NCBI GenBank assembly: GCA_937981585.1
Contig: CALJOA010000064.1
Span: forward strand, 1-64,000
Direction: 5' to 3'
DNA from: an uncultured Pirellulaceae bacterium
GTDB lineage: Bacteria > Planctomycetota > Planctomycetia > Pirellulales > Pirellulaceae
DNA length: 64,000 nt
Position 1 is the stretch's first letter. The number at the start of each line of letters is the position of its first letter. Both the position numbers and the translations under genes were made by a program. Below are positions 10,803-28,720 of the stretch, piece by piece. Under the pieces are notes generated by a model. That model did no database searches, had not been told where the DNA came from, and worked only from the letters and a program-made list of their open reading frames with translations.

Positions 10803-11651
10803 CTACTCTCGTTCATATAACGGTGATTTCAGTCTTGTGTATCCGACTCGCCGCAGCGAAGAACGGTTTTGCAATTCATCGGGTGCTGAATAGAGTTGTC
10901 GTGATTCGAGTGACCTTCCCAATTTGATAGTTGACCGGGTAGCTGGATTGCGGCCTGATCTGGTGCCGGAGCCAAGACCTGAGTTTGGACTTGAACTTGG
11001 AACCGAGCCACGATTTCGGACTTCTTCGTCCAGCGGTGGGTAGGGAGCGTTGCGATGCTCGGATTGATATCTGGGTGCCGCTTCCCAGATCAACCGCTTC
11101 TGCTGGTGGCCTTTCCAATCAACGAACTCCAGCAAGCCGTCTTTCTCGAGCTCGGCTCCATACTGAGCGTTGTGATACTCCTCAGATGACTTATGAACTT
11201 GGTCGAAAATCTGATTGGAATAACCAAGCCGATCTCCAAACGTGCTTTGATTCGGGCCGCTGCGGGACTCGTCGATGTGAGGCGGCACATGAAAATCGTT
11301 GTACGGGCGACGGTAATAGTACATCTGCGTTGCCTGATACGGGAAATGCAAACCCATGTTTCCCGGCGGTGTTTCCCGATGGCTCAACATCGCTGCGTTG
11401 CGCTTGACGCCTGAGACAAGGGCACCGACCTTGCCGTTGCAGCCTTGACATGGAGCCCTGGCCCCGGCGGCAACCGTGGGGCACGTTTGGCATCCACACT
11501 GCGAAACGTAGTCACTGTGTGACGTGATCAATGATGCTTGTCCAGCGAATTGGCCCTGAGCGATCGAGGGAATTCCGAATGAAATGGCCGCAAGCAAAGC
11601 GACACAAATTCGCTGAACCCAATTTTCAAGAAGAGAGTTCATTTTCATCAT
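10803..11651 (-). CDS. Hypothetical secreted protein with Cys-rich N-terminal segment (CGCQTC...CQGC)
   Basis: Signal peptide-like N-terminus; no recognised domain. Confidence 0.6.
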   Translation of the reverse strand: MMKMNSLLENWVQRICVALLAAISFGIPSIAQGQFAGQASLITSHSDYVSQCGCQTCPTVAAGARAPCQGCNGKVGALVSGVKRNAAMLSHRETPPGNMGLHFPYQATQMYYYRRPYNDFHVPPHIDESRSGPNQSTFGDRLGYSNQIFDQVHKSSEEYHNAQYGAELEKDGLLEFVDWKGHQQKRLIWEAAPRYQSEHRNAPYPPLDEEVRNRGSVPSSSPNSGLGSGTRSGRNPATRSTIKLGRSLESRQLYSAPDELQNRSSLRRVGYTRLKSPLYERE

Positions 11652-11897: not shown

Positions 11898-13766
11898 GTG
11901 AAGCGGACATTTCGGCAGACTCCGCCTCCTCATCGACCCTCTACTCCACACGGTGTTGCTTTGGTCAGGCGCTCTTTAATTCAGTTTCATCTCAATATTA
12001 GTACCAACAATTTGTGGGGGAGTCTCGGTTTGCGCTTTGCCGTTTTGATTCTTTTGATTTTCGCGTCTGAGATCTCGGAAAATCATTTGGCATGCGCACA
12101 GAACAGTCAACCGCCTCCACGCCCTACAACGCAAATTAGCTCGCGCCCAGCGTCTTCTGCAAAACGACTGGTTGGCCAACCTGCCAAGCCGCATGCGGCA
12201 ACGAAGGAATTGGCTTTGATTCGGGAAATCATCGAGCCCGAAATTTTGATGAACATCGAGCCGACCCAATCCAAAATTATTCGTACCAACTATCCGATCG
12301 TTCGATCTGCAATCAGTGATCCTGGAGTCGTGGACATTCAAACATTCGGCTCCAACGAATTTGAAATCATCGGCAAGGGGATCGGCGAAACGTCATTGAC
12401 GTTTTGGTATGAGCTTCCCAACGGTCAAATCGACTACCTGCGATATCTCGTAGAAGTCAACGACGAAGGCCAAAAGCAGAAGAGAAAAGAGCGGCGATAC
12501 TTGAAACTGCAATCTCGAATCAACGAGATGTTTCCCAACAGCCAGGTCTTCCTGGTCCCGATCGAAGACAAAGTGATCGTTCGCGGGCAGGCTCGTGATT
12601 CCAAAGAAGCTGCGGATATTATGCAGATGCTTGGACAGTTCGCGGGCGGTGGTCGAGGTGGTGCTGGCGGTGGAGGTGGTGGGCAATACCTGTACGGTGG
12701 CACGCGAAACGGTGGAAATCAATATTGGCTTAACGACATCCAATCGACTCGCGCAGACGGACGCGACAGGCAAAACGGAAATTTCGAAGACGATGACTAC
12801 GAGGACATAAACCCACAGGACTTCATCAATCTTCTCGAAGTACCTGGTGTTCAACAAGTGATGTTGAAAGTCAGGATCGCAGAACTAGTGCGCAACTCAA
12901 ACCGATCCGTTGGCGCCGACATTTCGACTTTGTTCGACTCGGGATCATTTAGTCACCTGCTCTCAGGAGGAGGCGGTAATGTTTCGGCGATACTCAGTGA
13001 CGGAGACGTGCAGTTCTTTCTGACTGCTGTGGGAACCCATGGATATGGCAAGATCCTTGCTGAGCCAACTTTGATTACGATCAGCGGTAAGTCTGCACGG
13101 TTTCAAGCAGGCGGCGAGTTTGCAGTTCCAACAACCGTTGGAGTCGGTGGCGTTGGCGGGATTGCGACGACGTTCCGTGGTTTTGGAACCGAGTTGGAAT
13201 TCACGCCTGTCGTGGTCGACAAAGACTTGATTCGGTTGCAGGTTTCGCCATCATTCAGCACGCTTAACAATGACGCTTCGGTTGCCGGGATACCCGGACT
13301 TAACCGCCGCTCGGTCGATACAACGGTCGACTTGCGAGAAGGCCAATGGCTCGCCGTGGCAGGTTTGATTCAAGACGAACAGGGCGGACAGAAAACGCGA
13401 ACGCCTTACATCGGCGATCTTCCATTCATCGGCGGCTTGTTTTCACATCGGGACACGTCGAGATTCGAAACCGAACTGATTGTCCTTGTCAGCCCAGAGT
13501 TAATCCACCCCATGGAGAGAGAACAGGTCCCGCTATTGTTACCGGGCATGGAAGTCACCGATCCCACCGATGACGATTTTTTCCTCCGACGCCAAACGGA
13601 AGGCTACCGCGGTTTCGATCATCGCAGCACATTGTGGACTGAGATGCAGTCGCACAATCGAGGAATCATCGAATCGCAATTCCTTGATGAGGTCACTTCA
13701 GGAACAAGACGTCAAATGCAAGTCCAGCGGTCCTACATTTCCGGACCATGCGGTTTTTCGGACTAA
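11898..13766 (+). CDS. cpaC: Type II/III-type secretin of a Tad pilus (RcpA/CpaC-like)
   Basis: BON/N1-like region and secretin core (VQQVMLKVRIAELVRNSNRSVGADI..., GGEFAVPTTVG, RLQVSPSFS, RSVDTTVDLREGQWLAVAGL, TELIVLVSPELIHPM). Confidence 0.88.
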   Translation: MKRTFRQTPPPHRPSTPHGVALVRRSLIQFHLNISTNNLWGSLGLRFAVLILLIFASEISENHLACAQNSQPPPRPTTQISSRPASSAKRLVGQPAKPHAATKELALIREIIEPEILMNIEPTQSKIIRTNYPIVRSAISDPGVVDIQTFGSNEFEIIGKGIGETSLTFWYELPNGQIDYLRYLVEVNDEGQKQKRKERRYLKLQSRINEMFPNSQVFLVPIEDKVIVRGQARDSKEAADIMQMLGQFAGGGRGGAGGGGGGQYLYGGTRNGGNQYWLNDIQSTRADGRDRQNGNFEDDDYEDINPQDFINLLEVPGVQQVMLKVRIAELVRNSNRSVGADISTLFDSGSFSHLLSGGGGNVSAILSDGDVQFFLTAVGTHGYGKILAEPTLITISGKSARFQAGGEFAVPTTVGVGGVGGIATTFRGFGTELEFTPVVVDKDLIRLQVSPSFSTLNNDASVAGIPGLNRRSVDTTVDLREGQWLAVAGLIQDEQGGQKTRTPYIGDLPFIGGLFSHRDTSRFETELIVLVSPELIHPMEREQVPLLLPGMEVTDPTDDDFFLRRQTEGYRGFDHRSTLWTEMQSHNRGIIESQFLDEVTSGTRRQMQVQRSYISGPCGFSD

Positions 13767-13772
13767 CAGAAA

Positions 13773-14516
13773 ATGAATTCAACAATATCTATGACACTAA
13801 GCTCGGGTTACGCAGCATTAAGGTTGAGCGTTGTCTCAATCTGTTTCGCCGCGCTAGCGGTGGGTTGTCGAGTCCAGCCGCCTGGCGGAACGCCAATCCA
13901 ACCGGGCTTGCTGGGCAGTGTTGTTGATGAAGCCAATCGGACGCAGGAAGAAAACGCTGAAGCCGCAAAGTTCATCGTTTACATGCACGAGTTTGAACCT
14001 AACACACCCAATCATGCCCATCTGCTCAATGGCCAGTCTACGATTGTTGGCGAGTTCGAATATCAAACCCAAGACAGAGTTCAAGGGTTTCGCTTGACTC
14101 CTCACGGACAAGACCACGTGCGTCAAATTGCCAGACATTTGATTTCAACTCAACCTCAACAACCCAATCAGAGTTACCTTCCTCATCGCTATGTCGTTAT
14201 CGAACGAAGTGATACCAGCAAGCATTGGAGCACGGTCCACCGGTTTCCGGTCCATTTCAATGACGAGCTTGACGCCGCACGGCGGCAGGTTGTTGTTAAC
14301 GCTTTGACGATGTTAGGTGTTGTTAACGCTTCTCAGATTGTGGTCGTTGCTCCCGCGTTTCCTGAAGGTCTCAACTCAGGAGAAGCCAGCCAAGCATACG
14401 GTCGGGCGTTTAATTACGGCGGCGGTGGACAAAACGGCGGAGGGAACTTTGGTGGCGGATTTGGCGGTGGAGGAGGATTTGGTGGCGGTGGATTTGGTGG
14501 AGGTTTTGGTAATTGA
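13773..14516 (+). CDS. Lipoprotein, possible CpaD-like pilus component, Gly-rich C-terminus
   Basis: Lipobox-like LAVGC; position between secretin and TadD; FRLTPHGQDHVRQIARHL and VVNALTMLGV segments; GGGFGGGG tail. Confidence 0.55.
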   Translation: MNSTISMTLSSGYAALRLSVVSICFAALAVGCRVQPPGGTPIQPGLLGSVVDEANRTQEENAEAAKFIVYMHEFEPNTPNHAHLLNGQSTIVGEFEYQTQDRVQGFRLTPHGQDHVRQIARHLISTQPQQPNQSYLPHRYVVIERSDTSKHWSTVHRFPVHFNDELDAARRQVVVNALTMLGVVNASQIVVVAPAFPEGLNSGEASQAYGRAFNYGGGGQNGGGNFGGGFGGGGGFGGGGFGGGFGN

Positions 14517-14553: not shown

Positions 14554-15630
14554 ATGAATACCCGAATTGCAAAACTAGCTTTAGCAACAATTGCCCTGGT
14601 GGCGTTTGTGTCGGGTTGCGCTTCGGTCTCACATCCACTTGCTGGCAGGAAGGCGCTTCCTGTTAAACCCGATTCAAACTCGCTTGAAATTCAGTTTGGG
14701 ATGGCCAGACTGCTTGAAAGAAACGGAAAGCTCGAAGACGCACGAAACGCCTACTTGAATATTCTTGCCAATGGTCCGCACACTCCATCGCTTCACCGAC
14801 TGGGCGTGACTGCCGTTCGGCAAAATCGTCTCGACGCTGGTTTGCAGCATATGTCCAAAGCAATCGCCGCCGGAGCTCCGACGGCTGAGCTTTTAGGAGA
14901 CTACGGGTACGCTCAGCTTTTGGCTGGCGAATTGGAAGAAGCAGAAACAACGCTTAAAAAAGCAGTCACACTTGACCCCAGCCAAAAAAGAAACGTCAAC
15001 AATTTGGCGATCGTAGTTGGAAAGCAGAATCGGCTCAACGAATCGTTTCAACTGTTTCGCCAAGCCAATCCTGAAGCCGAGGCGATTGCCAACCTAGCGT
15101 TCATCCAAGCCCAATCGGAAGACCTTTCAAGGGCGAGGTTGAACTACAACCGTGCTCTGGATCTCGACCCCCAGCTTAAAATCGCGGCCATCGGTCTGAT
15201 GGAAGTCCACAAGCACATCCAAACCGGCGAGGCGGACTTAAATCAATCGATAGAAACAGGCACCCAATCCGCCTTGCCCCAACAAAGAATCGCTCAGGCC
15301 CCACGGACAAAAGCCAAACGGGTTCAATTGGCCAATCGAATTACTGGGTCCAGCCACTACGAAAGTCATGACCGAGTTCTCGCCAAAATGAAACGTCCGA
15401 TCCAACTACCCGATCGAGATCCTGCCAAACCTAAACCGCAGACAGTAAATCAAAGCATGGCGTCCACCAATGGACGGCGTGGGATTTTCCAGCCTCGCCC
15501 ATTGAGCCCGCCTAACGCGATTCAAACCGTCGCGCAGGTTTCTTACCAAGAACCGATCCAAGAAGATTCGGTCTCAGAGATGCCAGTCAACAGCCAAGAG
15601 ATAATCAATCACCCGCCACCGGGCAGCTAA
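14554..15630 (+). CDS. tadD: TadD-like TPR lipoprotein
   Basis: Lipobox FVSGCASV; TPR repeats; Tad locus context. Confidence 0.75.
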   Translation: MNTRIAKLALATIALVAFVSGCASVSHPLAGRKALPVKPDSNSLEIQFGMARLLERNGKLEDARNAYLNILANGPHTPSLHRLGVTAVRQNRLDAGLQHMSKAIAAGAPTAELLGDYGYAQLLAGELEEAETTLKKAVTLDPSQKRNVNNLAIVVGKQNRLNESFQLFRQANPEAEAIANLAFIQAQSEDLSRARLNYNRALDLDPQLKIAAIGLMEVHKHIQTGEADLNQSIETGTQSALPQQRIAQAPRTKAKRVQLANRITGSSHYESHDRVLAKMKRPIQLPDRDPAKPKPQTVNQSMASTNGRRGIFQPRPLSPPNAIQTVAQVSYQEPIQEDSVSEMPVNSQEIINHPPPGS

Positions 15631-15702: not shown

Positions 15703-15978
15703 CTAGTCAACCAGGCCCTGTAAATCGGCGGCTTGGAAGCTTTGGACCTCGGCCTGAATCACTTCAGATTTAGGCGCTACAGGCGTTTCCATCTTGGTGG
15801 TCTGCTTGATCCGATCCCCCAGCTGTTGAAACTCGCTTTCGACGCTTGATCGGAAAGTGCTTAGTGCAGCCAAAAGTCCCGCCACAACCACGGAGGAAAT
15901 GAGCAGAAGTTCGGTCGTGATAATACCACCGTTACAATCGTTCCAGAGCAATTTTGGCATGTTGATTCCTTTGATCAA
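15703..15978 (-). CDS. Small Flp-pilin-like protein, divergent, on the opposite strand
   Basis: LWNDCNGGIITTELLLISSVVVAGLLAAL: prepilin-like signal with hydrophobic helix, aligns with the neighbouring pilins. Confidence 0.6.
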   Translation of the reverse strand: MIKGINMPKLLWNDCNGGIITTELLLISSVVVAGLLAALSTFRSSVESEFQQLGDRIKQTTKMETPVAPKSEVIQAEVQSFQAADLQGLVD

Positions 15979-16151
15979 GAAAAGTTTGAAAGTAGGAATT
16001 CATGGTGGTTGGAAACCAGTTTTTGTCAATCGGGAAAAAATTTACAGAATTTGAATTTATTCACATCATGCGGGTTAAGGAAACCTACTGTTGCGTAACA
16101 AGTGAACATTTTGTTCGTTACTCTTCAATCACGTTTCTTTTGGATTTCAAA

Positions 16152-16484
16152 ATGAAAAACCCTGCCCAAACACTTTGGAATGATGAAGCTGGTTTCATCG
16201 TTTCTATTGAGTTGATCTTGATCGCTACAATCGCCATTATCGGTTTGATTACCGGAATGACAGCCGTCCGTGACGCTGTTGTTTCTGAGTTGTCAGACGT
16301 TGCTGGTGCTGTTCAAGATCTTAACCAGTGCTACTCATTCAATGGCGTTGTTGGTCACTCTGCAAGCACATGTGGAAGTGATTTCATTGATGCTACTGAT
16401 CACTGCGATGACGCAGATGACATCGCTGGACAAGCCGACAACTGCATTACTTTTGACGGTGCTCCAGAGCAAGAAGGCAGCTAA
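16152..16484 (+). CDS. Flp-type pilin-like protein (paralog 1)
   Basis: LWNDEAGFIVSIELILIATIAIIGLITG + YSFNGVVGHS + NCITFDGAPEQE; ATG 16152 preferred over ORF start 16002. Confidence 0.75.
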   Translation: MKNPAQTLWNDEAGFIVSIELILIATIAIIGLITGMTAVRDAVVSELSDVAGAVQDLNQCYSFNGVVGHSASTCGSDFIDATDHCDDADDIAGQADNCITFDGAPEQEGS

Positions 16485-16516
16485 GCTGACTTTGGTATAG
16501 TTGGAATTCAACTGGA

Positions 16517-16549
16517 AAAGGCTGGCCTCATTTGAGGTCAGCCTTTTTT
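16517..16549 (+). terminator. Rho-independent terminator after pilin paralog 1
   Basis: AAAAGGCTGGCCTCA-TTT-GAGGTCAGCCTTTTTT hairpin with T-run. Confidence 0.85.
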
Positions 16550-16883
16550 GCGCGCGTTTTCAGAGGCAAAAAGCCCTGATAGATGTGACCTCGTAGCCTC
16601 CGTGGGTTGATCAAAGGGGAGGCATTTCGGAGTTTGCGAGGTGAGACTTGAGAAGAAATTCTGAGTCGGTTTCAATCCAGCCAGTTATTACATTCTCTTT
16701 CCAAACTGGACCAAAAGGGTACTCATCTGCGAAATTTTCACTAGAGCCAAAAACGGCGCGTTATGGTTTCGAGCTTTTCTAATGGGGCCTTCAGTTGTCC
16801 CATCATGTAACTCACACTTGCGACTACGGATTCTTCGCAACAGTGCAACGGATGCACTGGCAATAAATTAAGGATATAAAATC

Positions 16884-17210
16884 ATGGAAGTCATCAAGTC
16901 AATTTGGATCGACGAAGCCGGATTCATTGTCTCAATCGAGTTGATTCTCATCGCAACCATCATGGTCATTGGGTTGATCACTGGATTTACCGCCGTTCGT
17001 GACGCGGTCGTCGCGGAACTGTCGGATGTCGGAGGCGCAATTCAAGACCTGAACCAGTCTTACTCTTTCAACGGAGTAACAGGGCACTCCGGGTTTACTC
17101 AGGGAAGTAGCTACCTCGACGCACGCGATTTTTGTGATGTTGCTGAGGATCCTATCAACCAAGCAGACAACTGCATTGTCTTCACGCGGCGCCCAGCGAA
17201 CGAACGCTAG
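16884..17210 (+). CDS. Flp-type pilin-like protein (paralog 2)
   Basis: DEAGFIVSIELILIATIMVIGLITGF; SYSFNGVTGHSGFTQGSSYLDARDFCD; NCIVFTRRPANER. Confidence 0.75.
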   Translation: MEVIKSIWIDEAGFIVSIELILIATIMVIGLITGFTAVRDAVVAELSDVGGAIQDLNQSYSFNGVTGHSGFTQGSSYLDARDFCDVAEDPINQADNCIVFTRRPANER

Positions 17211-17337
17211 TCACGTGGAGCAATGGGCCGTTTATCACAAGAGACTTATCAATTGATAGCCTTACCAGACCACTTCTCTTGGGCTGGACAATTTTTTCAC
17301 TTTTAAGCCCCCAAACTCTGCATACAAGGATATAGCC

Positions 17338-17664
17338 ATGCAAGTATCAGTTTTACTTTGGCAGGACGATTCGGGATTCATCGTTTCAATCGAGCTTATT
17401 TTGATAGCGACGATCATGGTTATCGGCTTGATTACCGGCTTCACTGCCGTGCGAGATGCAGTGGTTAGTGAGTTGTCTGACGTCGGTGGAGCCATCCAGG
17501 ATCTGACTCAGTCATACTCGTTCAACGGAGTAACCGGTCACTCGGGGTTCACCCAAGGCAGTAGCTACCTCGACGCACGGGATTTTTGTGACGCTTTCGA
17601 GGACCCAATCAGCCAAGCCGACAATTGCATCCTGTTCAATCGGGCTCCAGCGAACGAGCGATAG
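17338..17664 (+). CDS. Flp-type pilin-like protein (paralog 3)
   Basis: Near-identical protein to paralog 2, with shared upstream AAGGATATA. Confidence 0.75.
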   Translation: MQVSVLLWQDDSGFIVSIELILIATIMVIGLITGFTAVRDAVVSELSDVGGAIQDLTQSYSFNGVTGHSGFTQGSSYLDARDFCDAFEDPISQADNCILFNRAPANER

Positions 17665-17687
17665 TACTGCGTCACACCTGAATTCTG

Positions 17688-17771
17688 GGGTTAGCCGTTT
17701 TGGCATTTTGGCGATAGCCACGGTTGAGTCCCGAACCGTGGCTATCGCCAAAACGGCTGATTTTTTAACCC
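17688..17771. repeat. Long palindromic element (AGCCGTTTTGGC...AACCGTGGCTATCGCCAAAACGGCT), terminator-like
   Basis: Perfect complementarity of CCGTGGCTATCGCCAAAA arms with a short loop; left arm contains an internal TTTTGGCA/TTTTGGCG duplication; followed by a T-run. Confidence 0.9.
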
Positions 17772-18093
17772 TCACTTTTAGTTCTAACAAAGCGCCAGTC
17801 TTCAGCCAGCACTCGCGAACGACTCGCTCCTACTATGCGGCGAATTCAACAAATACGGCTCCAACTGGCACCGTTTGAAGCAGCTCATCTGAATAACCGA
17901 GTGCTTCGGGTTGGGGCGGTTACGGTGAGCCTGTTCATTGGAAGTTCGTCAACTCCATAAGAGAATCAGGACGTCCGAGTCTAACTATAGGTTCCACCGT
18001 TGCTTGAGGTAGAAAGCTTCCAACTTCCTCAGTTGGAACATTTGCTTTTAAAGGGGCAATGGCACCATCTCATCTGAGCTCGGGCTTTTTCCA

Positions 18094-20034
18094 ATGTCAG
18101 CAACTGCGCAAGAAGGCACCGCCGACAAAAGCGGGCATCAACTACAAGCTATTCTGCCGGACTGGTGCGCGCTGAGTTGGCAACACGCGCTGATTTGCTT
18201 CACTTTTTTGATTCTGTTTTTGCATTTGAGCTATCTACCGGTACCCACCGGCCAGATCTGGCATGAAGTCGCCAACGGTCGAACAATTGTTAGCAGTGGA
18301 ACCACCGCGGCGGATCCAGCTCTACCCTACTCCGAAGGCATTCGAAAACTGCAGACTAGTTGGCTGGGCCAGTCGCTCGTCTATCGAATCTACAGTTTCG
18401 GCGGCGCCGAGTGGCTCAGCTGCGCCTTTGCGCTGCTTCAGATGTTCACCCTCGCGATCTGGGCATTTGTCTTTCAAAGAATCTCCGGTAGAAGATGGAC
18501 GGCGCTGCTTGTCGCGCCAATCGTCCTGGCGAGTTCAATCGATGTCAACTCATTGGGAGCATCAACATTCGGGCTCCTAATGTTCGCGTTGATCGCTCTA
18601 ACGATGGTCGGGACTGTTTCAAGACGAGATCAGCCGGCGGCGGCCGACATGGTTTGGTCGTCAGCTTCGACTTGGAGGTGGATTGTAGTCATTGGACTTT
18701 TCATTCTCTGGGCCAACTTTGACGTCAGCGTGTTGATAGGAGTCGGTTTGTTGGCAATGCTAACGGCGTCTCGCTTGGTCGGCGTCTTGAGCAAGCGAGA
18801 TAATCACGAATCTGTTTTAGCGGACAAAGAACTGCACCACCGAACGTGGCTATTCGAACTTTGTCTGGTCGCCACGCTGATACAGCCAGCCGGTTTGGGG
18901 CTATGGAAAGCCGTGTTCTGGTCCGCCAATAATCCCATCGTCCACGCGCTTGGAGGTTGGTCGCCGGTCGCGATCGCGAGTTGGCGCGGGGCCTGGATCG
19001 CGATCGCTTGGCTCGGATGGATTGTTGCGTCTCGAAAGACTCACAGGATTCCGTATTGGAACACCGCCTGTGCGATTTTTGTAACCGTGGTCGTAGCGTG
19101 TTTTCAAAGCCAGATCATTTGGTTCGCCACTACGATGTGTCTTCTTTCGGTGTCGCTGTTGCCCCAACTCGCTAACCCCCGATTTGGCAATCGAAGGCCT
19201 GCTCAGAGTAAGGAACCTCAGAGCAACTCTAACTCTTCGTTAAAGTTTGCGTTTACGTTGGTTTGTGGTTTGCTGATTTGGATGGCTTTCACCCTTTCAC
19301 CGATCGGCAGCATGGCGATGGCAGGAAAGTCACGCACCACAGCCCAGGTTTTTGGGAGCAAGACGCCTTTGGGCGCAACTGCGTATCTGAAGGGAAACCG
19401 CCCAGCGAAAGTCGTTTGGACTCCGAAGTACTGGGCCGACCATCTACAAGTCGAAGGGGAGCCGACCAAGGTCTTGGCCAATCTCAACGACGCGGCGCTG
19501 ACTCCGAGAATCGAGAAAGACTACCAGTCAATCTATTACGGCGGAAAAAACTGGCAGCGACTCTTGCGGCGATATCAGATTGACGATCTCGTCGTGGACA
19601 AGGAAAACCAGACCGACCTGATGCGTGAACTGCGAGTCGACGCCGGGCCATTCAAGAAGGTGTTCGAAGATGAAATTTCGGTCGTCTATCGCCGCACCAA
19701 AGTTGTCTCCAATCTGGACAAGCCAACTGAAACGGCAAAAACGAAATCCAAGCTGAACTCGAACCCGGAAAAACCGGTAGCCGGCGGCGTCAGATTTCGG
19801 CTTTCCAAAGTCGGATCGGCCAAATTCGACACCGAGGATACCGATTGGATCAGAGACGAAGACCAACCCGTCGTTCAACAAAACGTTGACCAAAACGCTG
19901 GGGAACAATCGAATTTGAACGCCACTTTAACCACCAGCTCGAAAGCCCAATGGGCTCCCGCCAAACCCAAACCCGCTGCCGCCAAACTGTTCGGCGACCG
20001 ACCGACCAGCTCAACATCAGTTTTTGAGGACTGA
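18094..20034 (+). CDS. Polytopic membrane protein, GT-C glycosyltransferase-like N-terminal region
   Basis: WHEVANGRTIVSSGTTAADPALPYSEG...SWLGQSLVYRIYSFGG resembles the GT-C pattern (W.HL..GR.I...G..P..D......W..Q.LLY..Y..GG); many TM segments. Confidence 0.5.
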   Translation: MSATAQEGTADKSGHQLQAILPDWCALSWQHALICFTFLILFLHLSYLPVPTGQIWHEVANGRTIVSSGTTAADPALPYSEGIRKLQTSWLGQSLVYRIYSFGGAEWLSCAFALLQMFTLAIWAFVFQRISGRRWTALLVAPIVLASSIDVNSLGASTFGLLMFALIALTMVGTVSRRDQPAAADMVWSSASTWRWIVVIGLFILWANFDVSVLIGVGLLAMLTASRLVGVLSKRDNHESVLADKELHHRTWLFELCLVATLIQPAGLGLWKAVFWSANNPIVHALGGWSPVAIASWRGAWIAIAWLGWIVASRKTHRIPYWNTACAIFVTVVVACFQSQIIWFATTMCLLSVSLLPQLANPRFGNRRPAQSKEPQSNSNSSLKFAFTLVCGLLIWMAFTLSPIGSMAMAGKSRTTAQVFGSKTPLGATAYLKGNRPAKVVWTPKYWADHLQVEGEPTKVLANLNDAALTPRIEKDYQSIYYGGKNWQRLLRRYQIDDLVVDKENQTDLMRELRVDAGPFKKVFEDEISVVYRRTKVVSNLDKPTETAKTKSKLNSNPEKPVAGGVRFRLSKVGSAKFDTEDTDWIRDEDQPVVQQNVDQNAGEQSNLNATLTTSSKAQWAPAKPKPAAAKLFGDRPTSSTSVFED

Positions 20035-21333
20035 GTGATGAATCAAAACAGTGGCCAACAAAACCAGCTGGAACCAAACCGAGGAAAGAATCGGAATCGA
20101 TCGGGCAGAATATTCTTGCTCTCTCAGTTGGTTTTTCTTCCGGTGATCATTGGTGTGCTGAGCCTTAGCGCCGCCACGGTCAACAATCGACCTTTGATGC
20201 CAGTGCTGCATGAGAACCCCAGAACGGTTCGGCCTCAGCACGATTACGATTTTGTCATTACCGATCGCCAACTGAACGAAGTCCTGTATAAACTGCGGCC
20301 CAACTTCTCTCCCGACAAACCACCAAAGACGAATTACGTCGATCACGCGCTTCGATTTTGGGGGACCAAGATCGAATTTGACGATCAGTCGCTTGACGGT
20401 GTCCAACTCAGGGAACTTCTGGTAGACCACAAAGCATTTGCCGCAGCCTGGGGCGAAAACGAAACTCCGCTTTTGTCGGTAACGCCAAATGGAATCGCAG
20501 TTCGAACTCAGCAAGGTCGTTCAACGGTCAGCCACGTCGATCACCTGCTGGGAAGCTTGGCCGAAGTCGGAACGCCGCTCAGCTACAAGATCTCCGCTGC
20601 CAACGTCGAGGGTAGGTTGATCGACATGGTCCGGGACGGCGTGATGAATTTTAGCTTGAACCAGCGCGAGTACGAATGGACAACGTTGGCGTTGGCGTTT
20701 TACGCGGCCGACAATTCACCGTGGTATTCCCCCGAAGGCCAGGAGATCAGCTACGACTATCTGGCCAAGCGAATCATGCGCGAGACTCAGCCAGACGGCG
20801 TTTGCTACGGTCAACACCGGCTTTACACGCTGACGATTCTGCTTCGCATCGACGATCAAATGCGAACACAGGAAAAAGCAAGAAGCCCAAACGGCCCCGC
20901 TGGCTTAATTTCACCAGAAATGCGCAGCAGCATCATGAGCTATCTCGGTGATATGACCAGTCGAGCCTACCAGAGCCAGTCCGCTGAGGGATCGTGGGAT
21001 GGCAACTGGCCTGATGCGACGATCCCGGTGCGGGATCCTGACACCGATCAACTCAGCCGAAAAGTGCTGGCAACTGGCCATATGCTTGAGTGGTGGGCCA
21101 TGGCGCCACGTGAGCTTCACCCTCCACGTGAAACGATTGTGCGGGCGGCGCAATGGTTATCGCGCGTCATCATCGAGATGGAACCTGAGCGAATTGAACG
21201 CAACTATACATTCTTGACCCATGCAGGCAGGGCTTTGGCGCTTTGGCGCGGCGGATTCGCTGACGAGCTTTATCGAACGAAAATGATATCTGGCGAAAAT
21301 GATCAGCTACTGCCGTTTGAAGGGAGCAAATAG
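20035..21333 (+). CDS. Membrane-anchored protein, putative alpha/alpha-toroid (prenyltransferase/terpenoid-cyclase-like) fold
   Basis: N-terminal TM; CYGQHRLYTLTILLR, GSWDGNWPD, LATGHMLEWWAMAPRELHPP...AAQWL repeats resemble toroid helices. Confidence 0.4.
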   Translation: MMNQNSGQQNQLEPNRGKNRNRSGRIFLLSQLVFLPVIIGVLSLSAATVNNRPLMPVLHENPRTVRPQHDYDFVITDRQLNEVLYKLRPNFSPDKPPKTNYVDHALRFWGTKIEFDDQSLDGVQLRELLVDHKAFAAAWGENETPLLSVTPNGIAVRTQQGRSTVSHVDHLLGSLAEVGTPLSYKISAANVEGRLIDMVRDGVMNFSLNQREYEWTTLALAFYAADNSPWYSPEGQEISYDYLAKRIMRETQPDGVCYGQHRLYTLTILLRIDDQMRTQEKARSPNGPAGLISPEMRSSIMSYLGDMTSRAYQSQSAEGSWDGNWPDATIPVRDPDTDQLSRKVLATGHMLEWWAMAPRELHPPRETIVRAAQWLSRVIIEMEPERIERNYTFLTHAGRALALWRGGFADELYRTKMISGENDQLLPFEGSK

Positions 21334-21506
21334 ATTGATTGAAATCGGACACTCAATTGGCTCGAACCAAGTAGATAGGTATTGCATCATCAGTCAAAGC
21401 GAGGTTGGTTTCGGCGTTTAAGATTCGCGGCACCAGCTACATCAACGATCAAAGCCATCCCAAACATTTCCATCACCTAAAGAATTTTCGCTTCGGAGCT
21501 ACCTAA

Positions 21507-22046
21507 ATGGGTTTACTCGACCAAGCCTTGTTGCCGTTTGTCGGAATTGCAATTCTGATGACCATCGCCGTCGTCATCGACGTCAGGACTCGGCGCATCC
21601 CCAACTGGTTGACAGTTTCGGCTTTCACCGGCGGCGTGCTTTACCACACGGTCACCAGTGGATGGGAAGGACTTGGTTACGCGATGGGCGGATTCGCTGT
21701 CGGTTTTGGCATCCTGTTGGTGCTGTGGCTGGTCGGCGGTGGCGGTGGCGGTGATGTAAAGCTCATGGGGGCAGTGGGCGCCTGGGTGGGGCCGCTTTGT
21801 ACGTTGCTTATATTTCTTGGCAGCGCCGTATTTGCGGTCTTCTGCGTGATCGTTCTGGTTACCAGGAACAAACTCAAAGGCAGACGCAACGAGGACTTCA
21901 AGCCAACTCCGGCGACAGTGCCCGATGTTCCAACCAATAGCAGAACGGCGATCAAGCAGTACATCCCCTACGCGGTACCGGTTGCGATGGCGTCGTGGAT
22001 GGTATTTCTGTTTCAGTTACTCAAGGCAACCACAAACAACCAGTAG
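21507..22046 (+). CDS. tadV: Prepilin peptidase (TadV/CpaA family)
   Basis: VIDVRTRRIPNWLT and GGGGDVKLMGAVGAWVG (GxGD-type aspartyl protease motifs). Confidence 0.88.
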   Translation: MGLLDQALLPFVGIAILMTIAVVIDVRTRRIPNWLTVSAFTGGVLYHTVTSGWEGLGYAMGGFAVGFGILLVLWLVGGGGGGDVKLMGAVGAWVGPLCTLLIFLGSAVFAVFCVIVLVTRNKLKGRRNEDFKPTPATVPDVPTNSRTAIKQYIPYAVPVAMASWMVFLFQLLKATTNNQ

Positions 22047-22215
22047 GCAAGAGGAAGTACTACCACGCTTTTGATTCAAACTCAGCCAATCAATAAGTCG
22101 GAAGGATCCGACTTGAGGCAGTTGAGACCGATTCGATTTCCTTTTGCAGTTTCAAGTTCACTCTTCTCCAAGGCAAATATTATTCGGTAACCACCGCAAT
22201 ACAATTTGAACAAAC

Positions 22216-23721
22216 ATGTCACGCATTGATTCAGGGACGATATTAGTTGCGTTTTTCGCCATTCTATTTGGGTTGGTCGGAGCTTTTCTGCTTCGAAAAA
22301 CTCTGCAAAAAAAGCCAGTCGCGCAGGCGCCGCCGGAGGTTCGCCGTGGGCCTGCGAAGATCACGGTTCCGCTAGCCAGTCGAAACTTACCGTCGGGAAC
22401 TCGAATCACGCTCGACGATGTCGCGCTGTTCAGCTTGACTCGGGAGGAAATGAAAGAGCATGGTATCAAACGCGTTTTCATGTCCAATCCCGATCAGATT
22501 ATCGGAAAAACGGTCGCCGTCGATTTGCAGCGCGGATCGACGTTCGACACCAAAGACTTTTATCCCCCCGGAACCGGCCCCGGGATTGCTGATAAGCTCC
22601 AGCCCGGTCAACGCGCAGTGACGATCGATGTGACTGCGACCAGTGCGTTGTTAGGGTTCGCTGGCGCCGGACAAAATGTCGATGTGTTGTTTCACTACGG
22701 TCTCAATTCCCGAAGTGCGAACGGGCATACTGGTGATCAGGATTTAAACGATCGCTATCAAAACAACTCAGACTACTGGGAACCTGAACACTTTCAATAC
22801 AACTCGCCCAGAGGCTTGAACGCTCAACAAGGTAGTGGTCGACGCCACCGACACTATGATGACGACCGCCGTGCTGGCATTTCAGCAGCCAAGTACCACA
22901 ACGCAACGGTCACACTTGTTCAAAAGGCAACCATCCTCGCGCTTGGTCAGCGGGTCAATCAGACGGGCCACTCCAGTCAGCTTGGTTTCGACGAGCGTGT
23001 TCGGGTGACACTGGCGGTAAAGCCCGAATCGGCTGAGCTGATTCGAGTTGCTGAGGGTCACGGGGAATTGTCGCTGACACTGCGGGGATCTGACGATGAA
23101 GAGATCATCAAAATCGACGAGCCGGCCACGCTGAGCAACATCATCGTTGTGGAAGAGGAGCCAGTTCAGATCGCGCGGCGGGAAGTTCGCGACATGGATA
23201 TTTACCGAGGCCAAAACCGATCAAGTGTTCGATTTTTGCGTGATCGGGATACGGGAAAAGACGACTTCCAAAAATGGATTCTTCTCAAAGAGAATCCGCA
23301 GAGCGATCAGCAAGAGCCTAAGCAGCAACAGGGCGACGAAGTTAAACTCGATCTCGATCCCCAGCGTTTATCGGGACCGAACATAGAGCCCAACAAAAGA
23401 CCCAACCTGGGGCCTAACTTTGAGCAAAATTTTGGACCCAATACCGAGCGCAATCGAGGCTATCGAAATCTTGAAACGGCTGACGGATTCCTGATCGACC
23501 CGCGCGAAAAGTCAGAGCTTGAGCGGCTCAGATCAGATTTCAGAAAGATCAAAACTCTCTTCAACCAGGAACCCGAATTGCGAGATCGTCTCGAGGATTC
23601 AGGACCAATCAATATCGATGCACCCCAACCCATTGATTTGGACGAGGTTTCGTCCAAGGCAACTGAAGACGAACTGCGGTCGGCGACAGCTGTTGAACTT
23701 TACGATCCGAGGTGGGAATGA
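22216..23721 (+). CDS. cpaB: RcpC/CpaB Flp pilus assembly protein with Asn/Pro-rich C-terminal extension
   Basis: SAF-like region VPLASRNLPSGTRITLDDVAL; KLQPGQRAVTIDVTATSALLGFAGAGQNVDVL; locus context. Confidence 0.85.
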   Translation: MSRIDSGTILVAFFAILFGLVGAFLLRKTLQKKPVAQAPPEVRRGPAKITVPLASRNLPSGTRITLDDVALFSLTREEMKEHGIKRVFMSNPDQIIGKTVAVDLQRGSTFDTKDFYPPGTGPGIADKLQPGQRAVTIDVTATSALLGFAGAGQNVDVLFHYGLNSRSANGHTGDQDLNDRYQNNSDYWEPEHFQYNSPRGLNAQQGSGRRHRHYDDDRRAGISAAKYHNATVTLVQKATILALGQRVNQTGHSSQLGFDERVRVTLAVKPESAELIRVAEGHGELSLTLRGSDDEEIIKIDEPATLSNIIVVEEEPVQIARREVRDMDIYRGQNRSSVRFLRDRDTGKDDFQKWILLKENPQSDQQEPKQQQGDEVKLDLDPQRLSGPNIEPNKRPNLGPNFEQNFGPNTERNRGYRNLETADGFLIDPREKSELERLRSDFRKIKTLFNQEPELRDRLEDSGPINIDAPQPIDLDEVSSKATEDELRSATAVELYDPRWE

Positions 23722-25127
23722 TCGATGACTCAACCACGATTGCCCCGGCACCGATCTACTCGGTGAAAAATACGCATGAAAAACCGCAGGGCAGTTCGTT
23801 TGCAAATTCAACGTCGAACCAAGAAATTCAGTTTCAGGTTCTCAAACAGGCGATCCATCAAGAGCTTGTCGGTTCGCTTGACTTGGCTTCTGCAGAAGGT
23901 CTAACTCCACAGCAGTTTCAGGAACAGCTCAAACCCTACGTCAGTCGCAGCATCAACGACTGCCGCGGCGAACTGGCAGACGGGCAACGCGAGCGACTGG
24001 AAACCGAACTCTATGAAGAGATGTTCGGAATCGGACCGCTGGAGAAACTGATGGCCGATCCGTCGGTCAACGATATTCTTGTAAATCATCCGCACGAAGT
24101 GTTCATCGAACGCGATGGACAATTGGAACTGACTGATGTTGTTTTCGCTGATACCACGCATTTGCTGCGTATCATTCAGAGAATCGCTTCGTCGGTCGGG
24201 AGGAGAATCGACGAAGTCAGTCCAATGGTAGACGCCCGTCTGCCAGACGGATCACGTGTCAACGCAGTGATTCCGCCGCTGGCGCTGGACGGCCCAAAAC
24301 TTTCGATTCGCCGTTTTGCCAAAGTACATTTGACCCTGGACCGCTTGGTTGAAAACTCAACCATGACTCGTCCGATCGCCGACTTTCTCAAAGCCGCAGT
24401 TGAGGCGCGGATTAGCGTTTTGATCTCAGGTGGAACTGGTGCAGGAAAGACGACGTTGCTCAACGCACTTTCATCCTGCATTCCCGATGACGAGCGAGTT
24501 ATCACGATCGAGGACTCTGCTGAATTGATTCTGCAGCATCGGCATGTCGCACGACTGGAGACCCGGCCTGCCAATAGCGAAGGTGCAGGCGAGTTTACCC
24601 AGCGTGACCTTGTTCGCAACAGCCTGAGAATGAGACCCGACCGGATCATCGTTGGTGAGGTACGTGGTGTTGAAGCGTTCGACATGCTGCAAGCGATGAA
24701 CACCGGTCATGAAGGTTCACTAACGACGATTCACGCCAACGATGCCAACGACGCCCTGATGCGACTGGAGATGATGGTCGCAATGGCTGGGCTTGAATTA
24801 CCCCACGAAGTCGTCCGGTCCTACATCGGATCGGGAATCGGAATCGTCGTTCAGATCTCTCGTCTCAAAGGCGGTTTGCGACGGGTCATGCGAGTTGCCG
24901 AACTTAATCCGTTTCAGGAAAACGGTCGACCATCGTATCAGCTCAACGACGTGTTCACATTCAAGCGGGATGGTATTGATGCAGATGGGAATGTCCGCGG
25001 AGCTTTTGAGACTTCCTTTGACGCACCTCGCGCCATAAGCCGTTTCAATGAACTGGGCATCGATTACGATGCGTCGACCTTTACGAAACTCCGTCAGAAG
25101 TTCAATCGGAACAAAGGAAAATCGTGA
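23718..25127 (+). CDS. tadA: Tad secretion ATPase (TadA/CpaF)
   Basis: Walker A SGGTGAGKTTLLNAL; RMRPDRIIVGEVRG; GHEGSLTTIHAND. ATG 23718 overlaps the RcpC stop (ATGA). Confidence 0.95.
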   Translation: MIDDSTTIAPAPIYSVKNTHEKPQGSSFANSTSNQEIQFQVLKQAIHQELVGSLDLASAEGLTPQQFQEQLKPYVSRSINDCRGELADGQRERLETELYEEMFGIGPLEKLMADPSVNDILVNHPHEVFIERDGQLELTDVVFADTTHLLRIIQRIASSVGRRIDEVSPMVDARLPDGSRVNAVIPPLALDGPKLSIRRFAKVHLTLDRLVENSTMTRPIADFLKAAVEARISVLISGGTGAGKTTLLNALSSCIPDDERVITIEDSAELILQHRHVARLETRPANSEGAGEFTQRDLVRNSLRMRPDRIIVGEVRGVEAFDMLQAMNTGHEGSLTTIHANDANDALMRLEMMVAMAGLELPHEVVRSYIGSGIGIVVQISRLKGGLRRVMRVAELNPFQENGRPSYQLNDVFTFKRDGIDADGNVRGAFETSFDAPRAISRFNELGIDYDASTFTKLRQKFNRNKGKS

Positions 25128-26038
25128 GCGCGCTCGAGTTTTCAGTTTTTGCTTCGCTGGCCGGATTCTTCATGTTGTCCGCCGTATTTGTTCGTCGTTT
25201 GATGACGCCCAGCGGTCCAGCGGAAATTGCGCTTAGGCGACTTCCTCAACGAGTGATCACGCCACCCTCCGACACCGACTCGATCGCTGTTCGTTTCGAT
25301 CGCTGGATGCATTCTACGTTGATAGGATCGGGAGTCGGAATGTCGATTGGAACAATCGTCTTGCTTTCAATCCTTGCGGCAGTCCTGACCGCGACGGCAA
25401 CATTTCTCTACGGGGCTTCGTTGCCGGTGCAGTTGTTGTTGTCGCTGGGTGTATTGTTTGTGGTTCCATTCGTATTAACTCTGATCCGGCGAAGAAGGAT
25501 CAAAGAGTTTTCAGATCAGCTTCCTCCGACGCTGGACCTTGTCGCTCGAGCGGTTCGCGCGGGAGAGAGTTTTGAAAGCGCTATCGAGATCGCAGCCAAA
25601 GCAGCCAAAGACCCGGTTAAGAACGAATTAAATCAATGCGTGCGTCAGTTTGAGCTGGGAACGCCCGTCGCGTCCGTTATGGCTGCGTTCGCCCAACGAA
25701 TTCCAACGATGGAAGTTCGCATTTTTGCTCACACCGTTACGGTCCATCGTGAGCTTGGTGGGCGACTGGCCGAAGGTTTGGAGCGATTGGCGACCGTAAT
25801 TCGTGACCGTCGCGAATACATTCAAAAAGTAAACTCAATGACGAGTCTGGGGCGGTTTGCAATCGGGGCGATCAGCCTGATGGGAGTGTTTGTTCTTGCT
25901 TATCTGACGATCTTCCATCCAGAGTATTTGCGGAAACTGCTTTCGTCGGAGCTGGGGCTCAAGATGGTGGCCTACGGTGTGATCTCCGAGATCGTCGGGC
26001 TTTGCTGGGTCGCGATGACGTTAAAGATGGAGTACTAA
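25124..26038 (+). CDS. tadB: Tad inner-membrane protein TadB (type II secretion F family)
   Basis: DQLPPTLDLVARAVRAGESFESAIEIAA; TM pattern; GTGA overlap with tadA stop. Confidence 0.88.
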   Translation: MSALEFSVFASLAGFFMLSAVFVRRLMTPSGPAEIALRRLPQRVITPPSDTDSIAVRFDRWMHSTLIGSGVGMSIGTIVLLSILAAVLTATATFLYGASLPVQLLLSLGVLFVVPFVLTLIRRRRIKEFSDQLPPTLDLVARAVRAGESFESAIEIAAKAAKDPVKNELNQCVRQFELGTPVASVMAAFAQRIPTMEVRIFAHTVTVHRELGGRLAEGLERLATVIRDRREYIQKVNSMTSLGRFAIGAISLMGVFVLAYLTIFHPEYLRKLLSSELGLKMVAYGVISEIVGLCWVAMTLKMEY

Positions 26039-26041
26039 GCC

Positions 26042-27037
26042 ATGCAGTTACTCCCTTACCTTTTGATTTTCACCAGTATCGCAATGGTTGTCTTTCTGCT
26101 GGGGCAGCGATTACGAAAACCGAAAACCCAGACCAACCAATTTGATTTTCTTCGGCCCGATGCGTTTGGACCGTTGACCAAACCTCTTTCCAATGTATTT
26201 CCCGTTAGCGAAAAGAAGCAAACCATCTTGCGGATTGAATTGCTCGGAGCCGGCCAGTTTCATACAAACGCGCTTTCCAACTACCTCGCCCGGCGAAACG
26301 TTTGTGTCATGATTGTGATCTTGGGTGCGGCGTTGCTGTTCATAAGCGAAGAAATCGCTCCTGCTTACAAAATTTACATTCTTATTGGTGGACTAGTTGC
26401 AACGATTTTCGCCTACGGACTGCCTCGATTGATTCTCAGCTCGATTGCGTCAAGACGTCGGCGCGGAATTGAAAATGCATTTCCCGATGCACTGGACATG
26501 ATTGCGATGTCGGTCGAAGGCGGTTTGCCGATCCAGGACGCGGTTCGACGAGTTTCAGATGAATTTAAACTGACACACCGGGCGTTGTCGAAAGAGTTGT
26601 TGATCATCTCACGCCAAACCGATACCGGTTCGGTTCAACAGGCGATGTCGTCGTTTGCCGAACGAATCGACATGCCCGAGATCGGAGCTTGGGCTGCGCT
26701 GATGTCGCAAAGCCAACGGTTGGGCGGAAAGGTGGCTGGGTCATTGTTGCAATGCGCCGATCGAATGCGACACAATCGGAAAACACGGGCCGAGCAGGCT
26801 GGCAATACCGCTTCGATCAAGCTCCTGTTGCCGACTGTTTTGTGTCTTGCCCCGCCCGTTTTTATTCTTCTGATCGGTCCGGCAGCACTCGATTTTCGAG
26901 ACTTCATGAATCGGGAGCGAGACGAAAGCACACAGTTGGTCGAGCAGGCCAACGCGATCACGGGTCCCAATGGTCGACCGGTTCCGCGAGCAATGGACCG
27001 TTTGATGCCTGCTCGAACCGACACGAATATCAATTGA
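26042..27037 (+). CDS. tadC: Tad inner-membrane protein TadC (type II secretion F family)
   Basis: NAFPDALDMIAMSVEGGLPIQDAVRRV; LGGKVAGSLLQCADRMRHNRKTRAEQAG; C-terminal TM. Confidence 0.88.
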   Translation: MQLLPYLLIFTSIAMVVFLLGQRLRKPKTQTNQFDFLRPDAFGPLTKPLSNVFPVSEKKQTILRIELLGAGQFHTNALSNYLARRNVCVMIVILGAALLFISEEIAPAYKIYILIGGLVATIFAYGLPRLILSSIASRRRRGIENAFPDALDMIAMSVEGGLPIQDAVRRVSDEFKLTHRALSKELLIISRQTDTGSVQQAMSSFAERIDMPEIGAWAALMSQSQRLGGKVAGSLLQCADRMRHNRKTRAEQAGNTASIKLLLPTVLCLAPPVFILLIGPAALDFRDFMNRERDESTQLVEQANAITGPNGRPVPRAMDRLMPARTDTNIN

Positions 27038-27095
27038 TTTGTTTGGGCGTCCGAACTGCATGGAACTAAGAGGCTGCGATTACCTGCTCGTCAGC

Positions 27096-28106
27096 TTATT
27101 GAGCCGGTGCGGCCAGTTCAGCATCGGTTAAGACTCGATTGAAGATGCTTACATCATCAATCGTACCGGTAAAGAAGTTGTCATCACTGCTACTGCCAGT
27201 GTGAAGATTGGTTCTGCCGTTAGTGCCACCGATACCAATACCTCCACCGTGTTGCCAAAGTTGCGATCCAGGAGCCGAACCAAACAATGCTCCGTTGAGG
27301 TATCCACTAAGCGCATCCGGCTGAACCGTCGCGTCGCCATCCAAGACCAGCGAAACGGTGTTGTCGACGCCTGCAGAAATTGGAACGGAGATAAACTCGG
27401 GATCCCAGCCAGATTCACCATCGGGAATGTTCCAGCCGCCAATGTAAAGCATCCCGTCGTCGATGTAGATGACAAGCCCGCGTACTGTCGCGCCTTCTTC
27501 GTAGAGAACCTGCGTTGACGTCACATCGTCTGCATTGAATGTCAGCGTGATCGTACGCTCTTCGTGAATTCCAAGATTAATATCGTCAGAATTTGGTAGA
27601 TAGATCGCGTCGTCTCCATCAAACTCGACGACGCCATCGGTGAAGTTGGGATCACCAACGGCCACACCGCTGTTATCGGAACCAAAGGGCGATGTGTCGC
27701 TCGCGTCACCACCATCAAAGCTCAGACTCGTAACCAGTTCGTCTGGGGCAATCACAGTCGCTATTTCGTTAGTTGGCGGTCCATCAAACACAATGCAGTT
27801 ATCGGCGACACCTGGAGCATCGTCGGAATTGTCGCAGTGGTCGAGCGAGTCACCGTATGACATTCCGGCGACATGAGAGCTGTGTCCACGTAGACCATTG
27901 ACGGAATAGCATCCCTGCAAGTCCTGAACCGCTCCACCGACATCCGAAAGCTCACTAATGACTGCATCGCGTAATGCGGTCGAACTTGTAGCCAGCCCAA
28001 TCAAGACGACAGTTGCAACCAGAATCAGCTCAGTAGAAAGAGCCGTTCCGTAAGTGTCGCCTTGGAGACGCTTCAAGAAGCGAGATGTGAACTCAGAAAA
28101 CCGCAT
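27096..28106 (-). CDS. Large pilin-like protein: Flp-like N-terminal helix + pilin-family domain + LamG/concanavalin-like domain
   Basis: GTALSTELILVATVVLIGLATS; GCYSVNGLRGHS...HCDNSDDAPGVADNCIVFDGPPTNE as in neighbouring pilins; LamG-like HEERTITLTFNADD...VLYEEGATVRGLVIYIDDGMLYIGGWN...GTIDDVSIFNRVLTDAEL. Confidence 0.75.
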   Translation of the reverse strand: MRFSEFTSRFLKRLQGDTYGTALSTELILVATVVLIGLATSSTALRDAVISELSDVGGAVQDLQGCYSVNGLRGHSSHVAGMSYGDSLDHCDNSDDAPGVADNCIVFDGPPTNEIATVIAPDELVTSLSFDGGDASDTSPFGSDNSGVAVGDPNFTDGVVEFDGDDAIYLPNSDDINLGIHEERTITLTFNADDVTSTQVLYEEGATVRGLVIYIDDGMLYIGGWNIPDGESGWDPEFISVPISAGVDNTVSLVLDGDATVQPDALSGYLNGALFGSAPGSQLWQHGGGIGIGGTNGRTNLHTGSSSDDNFFTGTIDDVSIFNRVLTDAELAAPAQ

Positions 28107-28429
28107 GTGTCACTGTCTGAAAAACACTAAAGGGATGTTCGAAATTCTAGGTTGCAGTTAAAGCGAACAAGCTTTTTTCTCAGCGTTTAAGAGTCTGGTT
28201 ATCAGGAAGTTACGGGTTGTCTCAGGCATTTCGAGGTACTTCAAATGGGCTTCCTGAGTTGACGCTTTGAACCTAGCGATTACTGACAGGGTGAGTGATT
28301 CACAACTGCCTGTTCAACTTATGCAAATCGTAGAAGCGCATATTTTTTGAATGTCAAATCACTTGCCGACCAAATTCCGATAAATAGAGAGTTGGAAGAT
28401 AGTTTCACAGAATAAGTGGAGTTGGCGGA

Positions 28430-28720
28430 ATGGATTCCCAAAATCGCTCTTTGTTGATGGCTTTTAAACGTTTCTGGTGCAACGACGAAGGCTTCGTAAT
28501 TACGATCGAATTGATTTTGATCGCAACGATTGTTGGTATCGGGTCAATCGTTGGGCTGACCACGCTGCGTGACGCGATCAACAGTGAAATGGCAGATATA
28601 GCCGACGCGATCCAGAACATGGATGGAGGCAACGGGAATGGGAATGGCAATGGTAACGGCAATAGTAACGCCAACAGTTGCATCACTTTTTCAACTCCGC
28701 CGGCCGATGAGGCGCAATAG
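28430..28720 (+). CDS. Flp-type pilin-like protein with (Gly-Asn)n linker
   Basis: NDEGFVITIELILIATIVGIGSIVG; GGNGNGNGNGNGNSNANS; C-terminal SCITFSTPPADE as in other paralogs. Confidence 0.7.
   Translation: MDSQNRSLLMAFKRFWCNDEGFVITIELILIATIVGIGSIVGLTTLRDAINSEMADIADAIQNMDGGNGNGNGNGNGNSNANSCITFSTPPADEAQ
28628..28675 (+). repeat. In-gene hexanucleotide repeat (GGNAAY)n encoding (Gly-Asn)n
   Basis: GGCAACGGGAATGGGAATGGCAATGGTAACGGCAAT... Confidence 0.85.

Follow-up and report, generated by a model that had tools for sequence, protein, structure and literature searches.

A prepilin family with exchangeable C-terminal modules in a planctomycete Tad locus

Introduction

Which proteins form the pilus of a Tad locus whose own pilin genes do not look like classical Flp pilins? 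The question is raised by a 64,000-nucleotide stretch of DNA from an uncultured Pirellulaceae bacterium (contig CALJOA010000064.1; the whole stretch is hereafter called the window, and its genome G000). An earlier note, made from the sequence alone, described six pilin-like proteins here (P0001 to P0006) within a single Tad locus and set them apart from Flp pilins; we found all six open reading frames at the positions it gave. Their setting is a Tad core locus: genes for TadA, TadB, TadC, CpaB/RcpC, a secretin and an A24 peptidase lie clustered together, as expected of a Tad (Flp, type IVc) system, along with a TadD gene (Table 1). The six proteins belong to a family of their own, found in Tad settings, whose relatives exchange modules on a common stem. 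With a probability of roughly 0.7, we consider them Tad pilus subunits drawn from a prepilin family specific to one planctomycete class, with minor, module-bearing subunits predicted to act as glycan-binding adhesins.

Results and Discussion

A family distinct from Flp_Fap

The separation from classical Flp pilins proposed in the earlier note was borne out, with the Tad core nearby and no match to Flp_Fap (PF04964). Neither the stems of the window proteins nor those of 26 family members matched any Pfam family (0/26 at E 0.1), and NCBIfam returned only weak matches to the stems, far under the cut-off. When the family was compared by hhalign with 13 Flp_Fap pilins of the same order, the leader alone aligned (E 4e-4, probability 36%). 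The window family resembles Flp_Fap (type IVb/c) pilins in its Tad locus, its small hydrophobic prepilins, its leader glycine and a glutamate early in the helix. It differs in being longer (96-110 aa or more), in having leucine in place of tyrosine after that glutamate, and in its conserved tail. The cleavage region of the window proteins reads Gly, five residues, Glu-Leu, whereas the same region in the order's Flp_Fap pilins is GPTAVEY, GATAVEY or GASLVEY. Membership in Flp_Fap was therefore rejected, as all 26 members went unmatched and the window proteins lack the arrangement Gly, four residues, Glu-Tyr. Leader glycine and conserved glutamate are six positions apart in the window proteins (at 16191, 16920, 17374, 28049 and 28490) and in most of the family, against five in Flp_Fap; 123 of 137 relatives have the extra residue. 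The cleavage site or the register may be shifted by one residue relative to Flp_Fap.

Searches of open-licence papers returned no description of the stem family. The family, its Tad setting within one planctomycete class and its set of modules appear to be undescribed; modular pilins as such are known.

What marks the family

The earlier note had singled out a C-terminal (N/S)CIxFxxxPxxE motif in five of the six proteins. A six-frame scan of the 64 kb yielded exactly five matches, one in each named protein, and none in 100 shuffled windows. The middle YS(F/V)NGxxGHS...D...CD...ADNC is common to four proteins (P0001, P0002, P0003 and P0005), as had been described. The helix pattern proposed for the same five was present in all of them, but with three free residues, not four, between the initial GF or GT and the I/T-E pair. 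Corrected to G-F/T-(x)3-I/T-ELIL-I/V-AT, it has within the window a single, weaker match outside the five, in P0006.

As a signature of the whole family, the cysteine motif did not hold up. Its strict form occurs in 21 of 158 members, among them P0001-like pilins from other genera (NCITFDGAPANE and similar), and cysteine occupies that column in 72% of 137 members. Conservation in these 137 is higher elsewhere: a glycine (98%) and a glutamate (94%) in the leader and early helix; an arginine (99%), a glutamate (100%) and an aspartate (99%) along the helix's second half, which ends with a glutamine (93%); and three tail aspartates (95%, 81% and 85%) around a cysteine (62%), together with a second cysteine (72%). 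The family is thus marked by helix charges and tail aspartates, which are far more conserved than the strict motif. The cysteine motif, though real, characterizes a single clade, and there we take it as closing the pilin part.

A disulfide from the CIxFxxxPxxE cysteine to the upstream DxCD is plausible, as is a metal site at the conserved aspartate triad. The two main cysteines occur together in 71 of the 137 members, are both missing from 35 and occur singly in 31; Fisher's test gives p 4e-10 ignoring relatedness, and the tree supports only one to three independent pairs, a number too small to confirm a disulfide. AlphaFold 2 (AF2) modeled P0001 as one long helix over residues 12-57, with block means of up to 96 in the predicted local distance difference test (pLDDT). 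A Foldseek search of the short-pilin model against the PDB returned nothing. In sequence searches of the PDB, the stem had no credible relative, and the LamG-bearing pilin matched only 4qvs (E 0.064).

The six pilins of the window

P0001, which has four cysteines past the helix, has syntenic copies with 92.6, 76 and 75% identity in G013, G014 and G020, respectively, and one with 82% in L049. Being the pilin most conserved across islands makes it the strongest major-subunit candidate. The tandem pair P0002/P0003 is likewise found in G013. In P0004 a (GN)n repeat replaces the conserved middle, and the mature part has one cysteine; its G013 orthologue lies at the same position with 60% identity and a different low-complexity middle. 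P0006 has neither the cysteine motif nor the conserved tail, yet it is a family member by hidden Markov model (HMM; E 6e-9) and by hhalign profile-profile comparison (99%). Its start is more likely the ATG at 15960 (MPKLLWND, as in the orthologue L043:8837-9091), with the TTG at 15978 as the alternative.

TABLE 1. Genes of the Tad locus and its pilins, in window coordinates.
Feature	Position	Strand	Evidence
Secretin (RcpA/CpaC type)	11898..13766	+	PF00263 2.9e-36; PF13629 1.3e-10
Conserved Tad-island protein, Gly-rich end	13773..14516	+	Syntenic orthologues; no Pfam match above cut-off
TadD-like tetratricopeptide repeat (TPR) protein	14554..15630	+	TPR families
P0006, divergent small pilin, no Cys motif	15703..15960	-	Orthologues at the same place in G013, G014, G020, G024
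P0001, short pilin, candidate major subunit	16152..16484	+	HMM E 9e-58; motif 16440-16475
P0002, short pilin	16884..17210	+	Motif 17169-17204; 85% identity to P0003
P0003, short pilin, recent duplicate of P0002	17338..17664	+	Motif 17623-17658
Conserved multi-pass membrane protein	18094..20034	+	No Pfam/NCBIfam match; in most related Tad islands
Conserved partner gene of 18094	20035..21333	+	No Pfam/NCBIfam match; in most related Tad islands
A24 prepilin peptidase (TadV/CpaA)	21507..22046	+	PF01478 9.8e-21
CpaB/RcpC	22216..23721	+	PF16976 3.6e-15; TIGR03177 2.2e-38, over cut-off
TadA/CpaF ATPase	23712..25127	+	PF00437 6e-63; TIGR03819 7e-105, just under cut-off
TadB	25124..26038	+	PF00482 1.4e-15
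TadC	26042..27037	+	PF00482 5.9e-15
P0005, modular pilin (stem, then LamG)	27096..28106	-	Motif 27765-27800; LamG 27111-27620
P0004, pilin with Gly/Asn repeat	28430..28720	+	HMM E 1e-30; motif 28676-28711

Modules on a common stem

The layout suggested earlier (helix, middle, cysteine end, optional extra domain) recurs in homologues, with several different extra domains. In P0005 the module is a Laminin_G_3/ConA-like lectin domain (LamG; PF13385, E 2.6e-9, 37.8 bits against a curated cut-off of 27.6). The slot that P0005 occupies, convergent with and past tadC, holds LamG pilins in G014 and G020 as well; no such pilin was found there in G013. In G013 and G014 a second slot, on the far side of the gene divergent from the secretin, is occupied by a pilin with a domain that we call X; G000 has none there. 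G020 carries one X-domain pilin and one CBM60 pilin (CBM60 E 8.7e-13) on other contigs. LamG modules are carried by G000, G014 and G020 and X domains by G013, G014 and G020. The X domain had no Pfam match and was absent from 119 genomes of the class, a sample that missed its three carriers; in those three it is single-copy and sits on a pilin every time. These proteins follow the published concept of modular pilins (PMC8179133), a pilin helix followed by a non-pilus domain: LamG in P0005, and CBM60 or leucine-rich repeats in relatives.

The leucine-rich repeats belong to pilins of family f13 (L063, L074, L075, L076, L077 and L078), in which the stem is followed by a His/Pro-rich linker and then the repeats; two members were scanned and four more are similar by sequence. 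Where short family pilins are also found (L063, L074, L076 and L077), the repeat-bearing pilins lie on the opposite strand. Other stems carry Gly/Asn/His-rich or Cys/Pro-rich tails (L044, L126 and L127). Those of L126:4854-5840 and L127:1722-2792 are Cys-rich or Pro-rich low-complexity sequences (GCGTGCGSGC, CETPCETPC) and possibly cross-linking.

Stems are 37-51% alike regardless of the module carried, and modules of one type are 49-67% alike. The P0005 LamG domain recurs inside two long open frames, one of 1366 aa in G250 (40-43% identity) and one of 1287 aa in G024 (36%). This pattern of stem and module likeness, like the recurrence of LamG, is what grafting of modules predicts. P0005-type stems also sit on long branches (0.7-1.2, where the median is near 0.2), which fits the expectation for minor subunits.

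Distribution and surroundings of the locus

Within the order, the family is carried by 53 of 247 genomes, and CpaB is present in 53/53 carriers against 118/194 other genomes (p 2e-10, ignoring relatedness). A further CpaB place is found in 48/53 carriers against 13/118 (p 1e-24, again ignoring relatedness; split matches could inflate the count). The pilins lie about 1.5-3 kb from CpaB in many genomes. In a sample of the phylum, 19 of 294 genomes were positive, every one inside the class. Carriers include a cultured strain, Blastopirellula marina DSM 3645 (L045), which makes the family testable. Within the window's genus 5 of 28 genomes carry the family, and the window's island has no neighbor genes in common with those of the other members except one just upstream of the secretin. 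These neighborhoods vary despite a base composition that gives no signal of recent transfer (island GC 0.515, window 0.518), and a comparison with plasmids gave no match.

TadE- and TadG-like minor pilins are accessory parts of a Tad locus and not core. Neither TadE (PF07811) nor TadE/G-like (PF13400) had a match in the window, and the genome's matches are all on other contigs (27, 136, 116 and 3). Its Flp_Fap pilin also sits elsewhere, on contig 17; the genome therefore probably encodes a second, conventional Tad system. Between pilins and peptidase in the window lies the adjacent pair 18094-20034 and 20035-21333, for which a role in pilin modification is a guess. An uncharacterised protein (10803-11651, reverse strand) is divergent from the secretin, and Tad secretins of relatives have the same neighbor.

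In the genomes of family f21 the pilins also occur in tandem arrays. In G513 a 6-kb stretch (L124:2670-8669) contains nine of them in a row, and no Tad gene was recognised across the 14 kb covered there; other f21 genomes have up to at least 16 copies.

A proposed pilus and its alternatives

The window proteins have a prepilin-like leader and one long helix, which we count in favor of their being pilins. By established Tad biology, such prepilins would insert in the inner membrane by the N-terminal helix and be cleaved by the A24 peptidase at 21507, after which TadA/B/C would polymerise the subunits into a fiber leaving through the secretin. The shaft would consist mostly of short proteins, P0001 with the duplicates P0002 and P0003, and P0005, P0004 and P0006 would be minor subunits. 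In each clade member the CIxFxxxPxxE stretch would close the pilin part. P0005 would enter the fiber or its tip by the common stem and display its lectin-like module for glycan binding. Several observations weigh against this proposal. Low pLDDT values, about 41-51 for the short-pilin tail and 47.5 for P0005 as a whole, leave both the tail fold and the disulfide without structural support. The X domain and the low-complexity tails carry no binding annotation, and LamG domains are not lectins in every case. A tree test neither supported nor rejected a single origin of the modular pilins (approximately unbiased test, p-AU 0.34), a result compatible with one lineage that swapped modules or with several fusions; tests of a single origin for the LamG type and for the X type likewise favored neither side. 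The f21 arrays, lying apart from recognised Tad genes, imply that not all members need serve the same machine.

The extra domains might instead serve assembly or sealing, with modular pilins acting as structural tip initiators that replace the TadE/F/G complex. TadEFG proteins have been described as tip complexes needed for pilus formation (PMC12075869), and their lack of matches within the window would suit such a replacement. We nevertheless think this unlikely, since the domains come from unrelated families (LamG, CBM60, leucine-rich repeats, X), which ligand display fits better than one assembly role, and since some carriers, such as B. marina (L045), have no modular pilin in the stretch of Tad locus examined. 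Less probable still is a surface array for glycan capture or display, resembling the archaeal bindosomes, in which binding proteins with pilin leaders assemble at the surface with no long pilus. Carbohydrate-binding modules on prepilin stems and the f21 arrays apart from Tad genes would agree with it. TadA does match the bindosome ATPase model (4e-39), as expected across the superfamily, and its match to the TadA model is far stronger; the secretin, CpaB and TadA/B/C of a pilus machine are all present, and each locus consists mainly of short subunits without a module. That these are ordinary Flp pilins with meaningless extra residues is the most improbable of the three: it would account for the Tad locus, the leader signature and the leader-only hhalign alignment, but not for the failure of all 26 members to match Flp_Fap or for tail aspartates conserved at 81-95%. 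Moreover, Flp_Fap pilins exist in their own right in 166 of the order's 247 genomes, and the match listed for the window genome is on another contig.

We therefore favor Tad pilus subunits with predicted adhesins among the minor ones. An extended version is doubtful: a dedicated planctomycete Tad pilus, built from a single stem family whose carbohydrate-binding modules can be exchanged, that catches polysaccharides and brings them to the cell by retraction. If true, it would name the subunits of glycan-binding fibers seen by microscopy. Planctomycetes are polysaccharide degraders, and reuse of one stem with different end pieces suggests how carriers may adhere to polysaccharides or catch them.

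Comparison with known systems

The closest parallel in layout is provided by the modular type IV pilins of S. sanguinis, PilB (vWA) and PilC (ConA-like lectin), in which a pilin stem is likewise extended C-terminally by a functional module; PF13385 ranks with the commonest pilin modules listed there, and the PilC lectin module binds glycans (PMC8179133; PMC9934059). Theirs is the N-terminal IPR012902 motif, whereas the window stem is unmatched in Pfam, which we used instead of InterPro. The window stem family, moreover, is tied to a Tad machine and also supplies the short, presumably major subunits, so that grafting is seen on the very family that makes short Tad pilus subunits. In the Kil system of Myxococcus, Tad pili have variable tips, with multi-pilin complexes resembling TadEFG (PMC12075869). 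There, as in our proposal, a Tad pilus is customised by variable domains on minor pilins; the window differs in having no TadE/TadG-like match and in that its short pilins and its module-bearing pilin draw on a single stem family.

Within the planctomycetes, pili-like fibers of Planctopirus limnophila and Gemmata bind dextran, with gold-dextran located mainly on the fibers (PMC5394234). The likeness lies in planctomycete pili-like fibers with polysaccharide bound to them; the relevant passages of that paper identify no subunit, and the link to the window family is one that we infer. A prepilin family with exchangeable LamG and CBM60 modules, confined to one class in the samples searched, is a concrete candidate for a subunit of such dextran-binding fibers.

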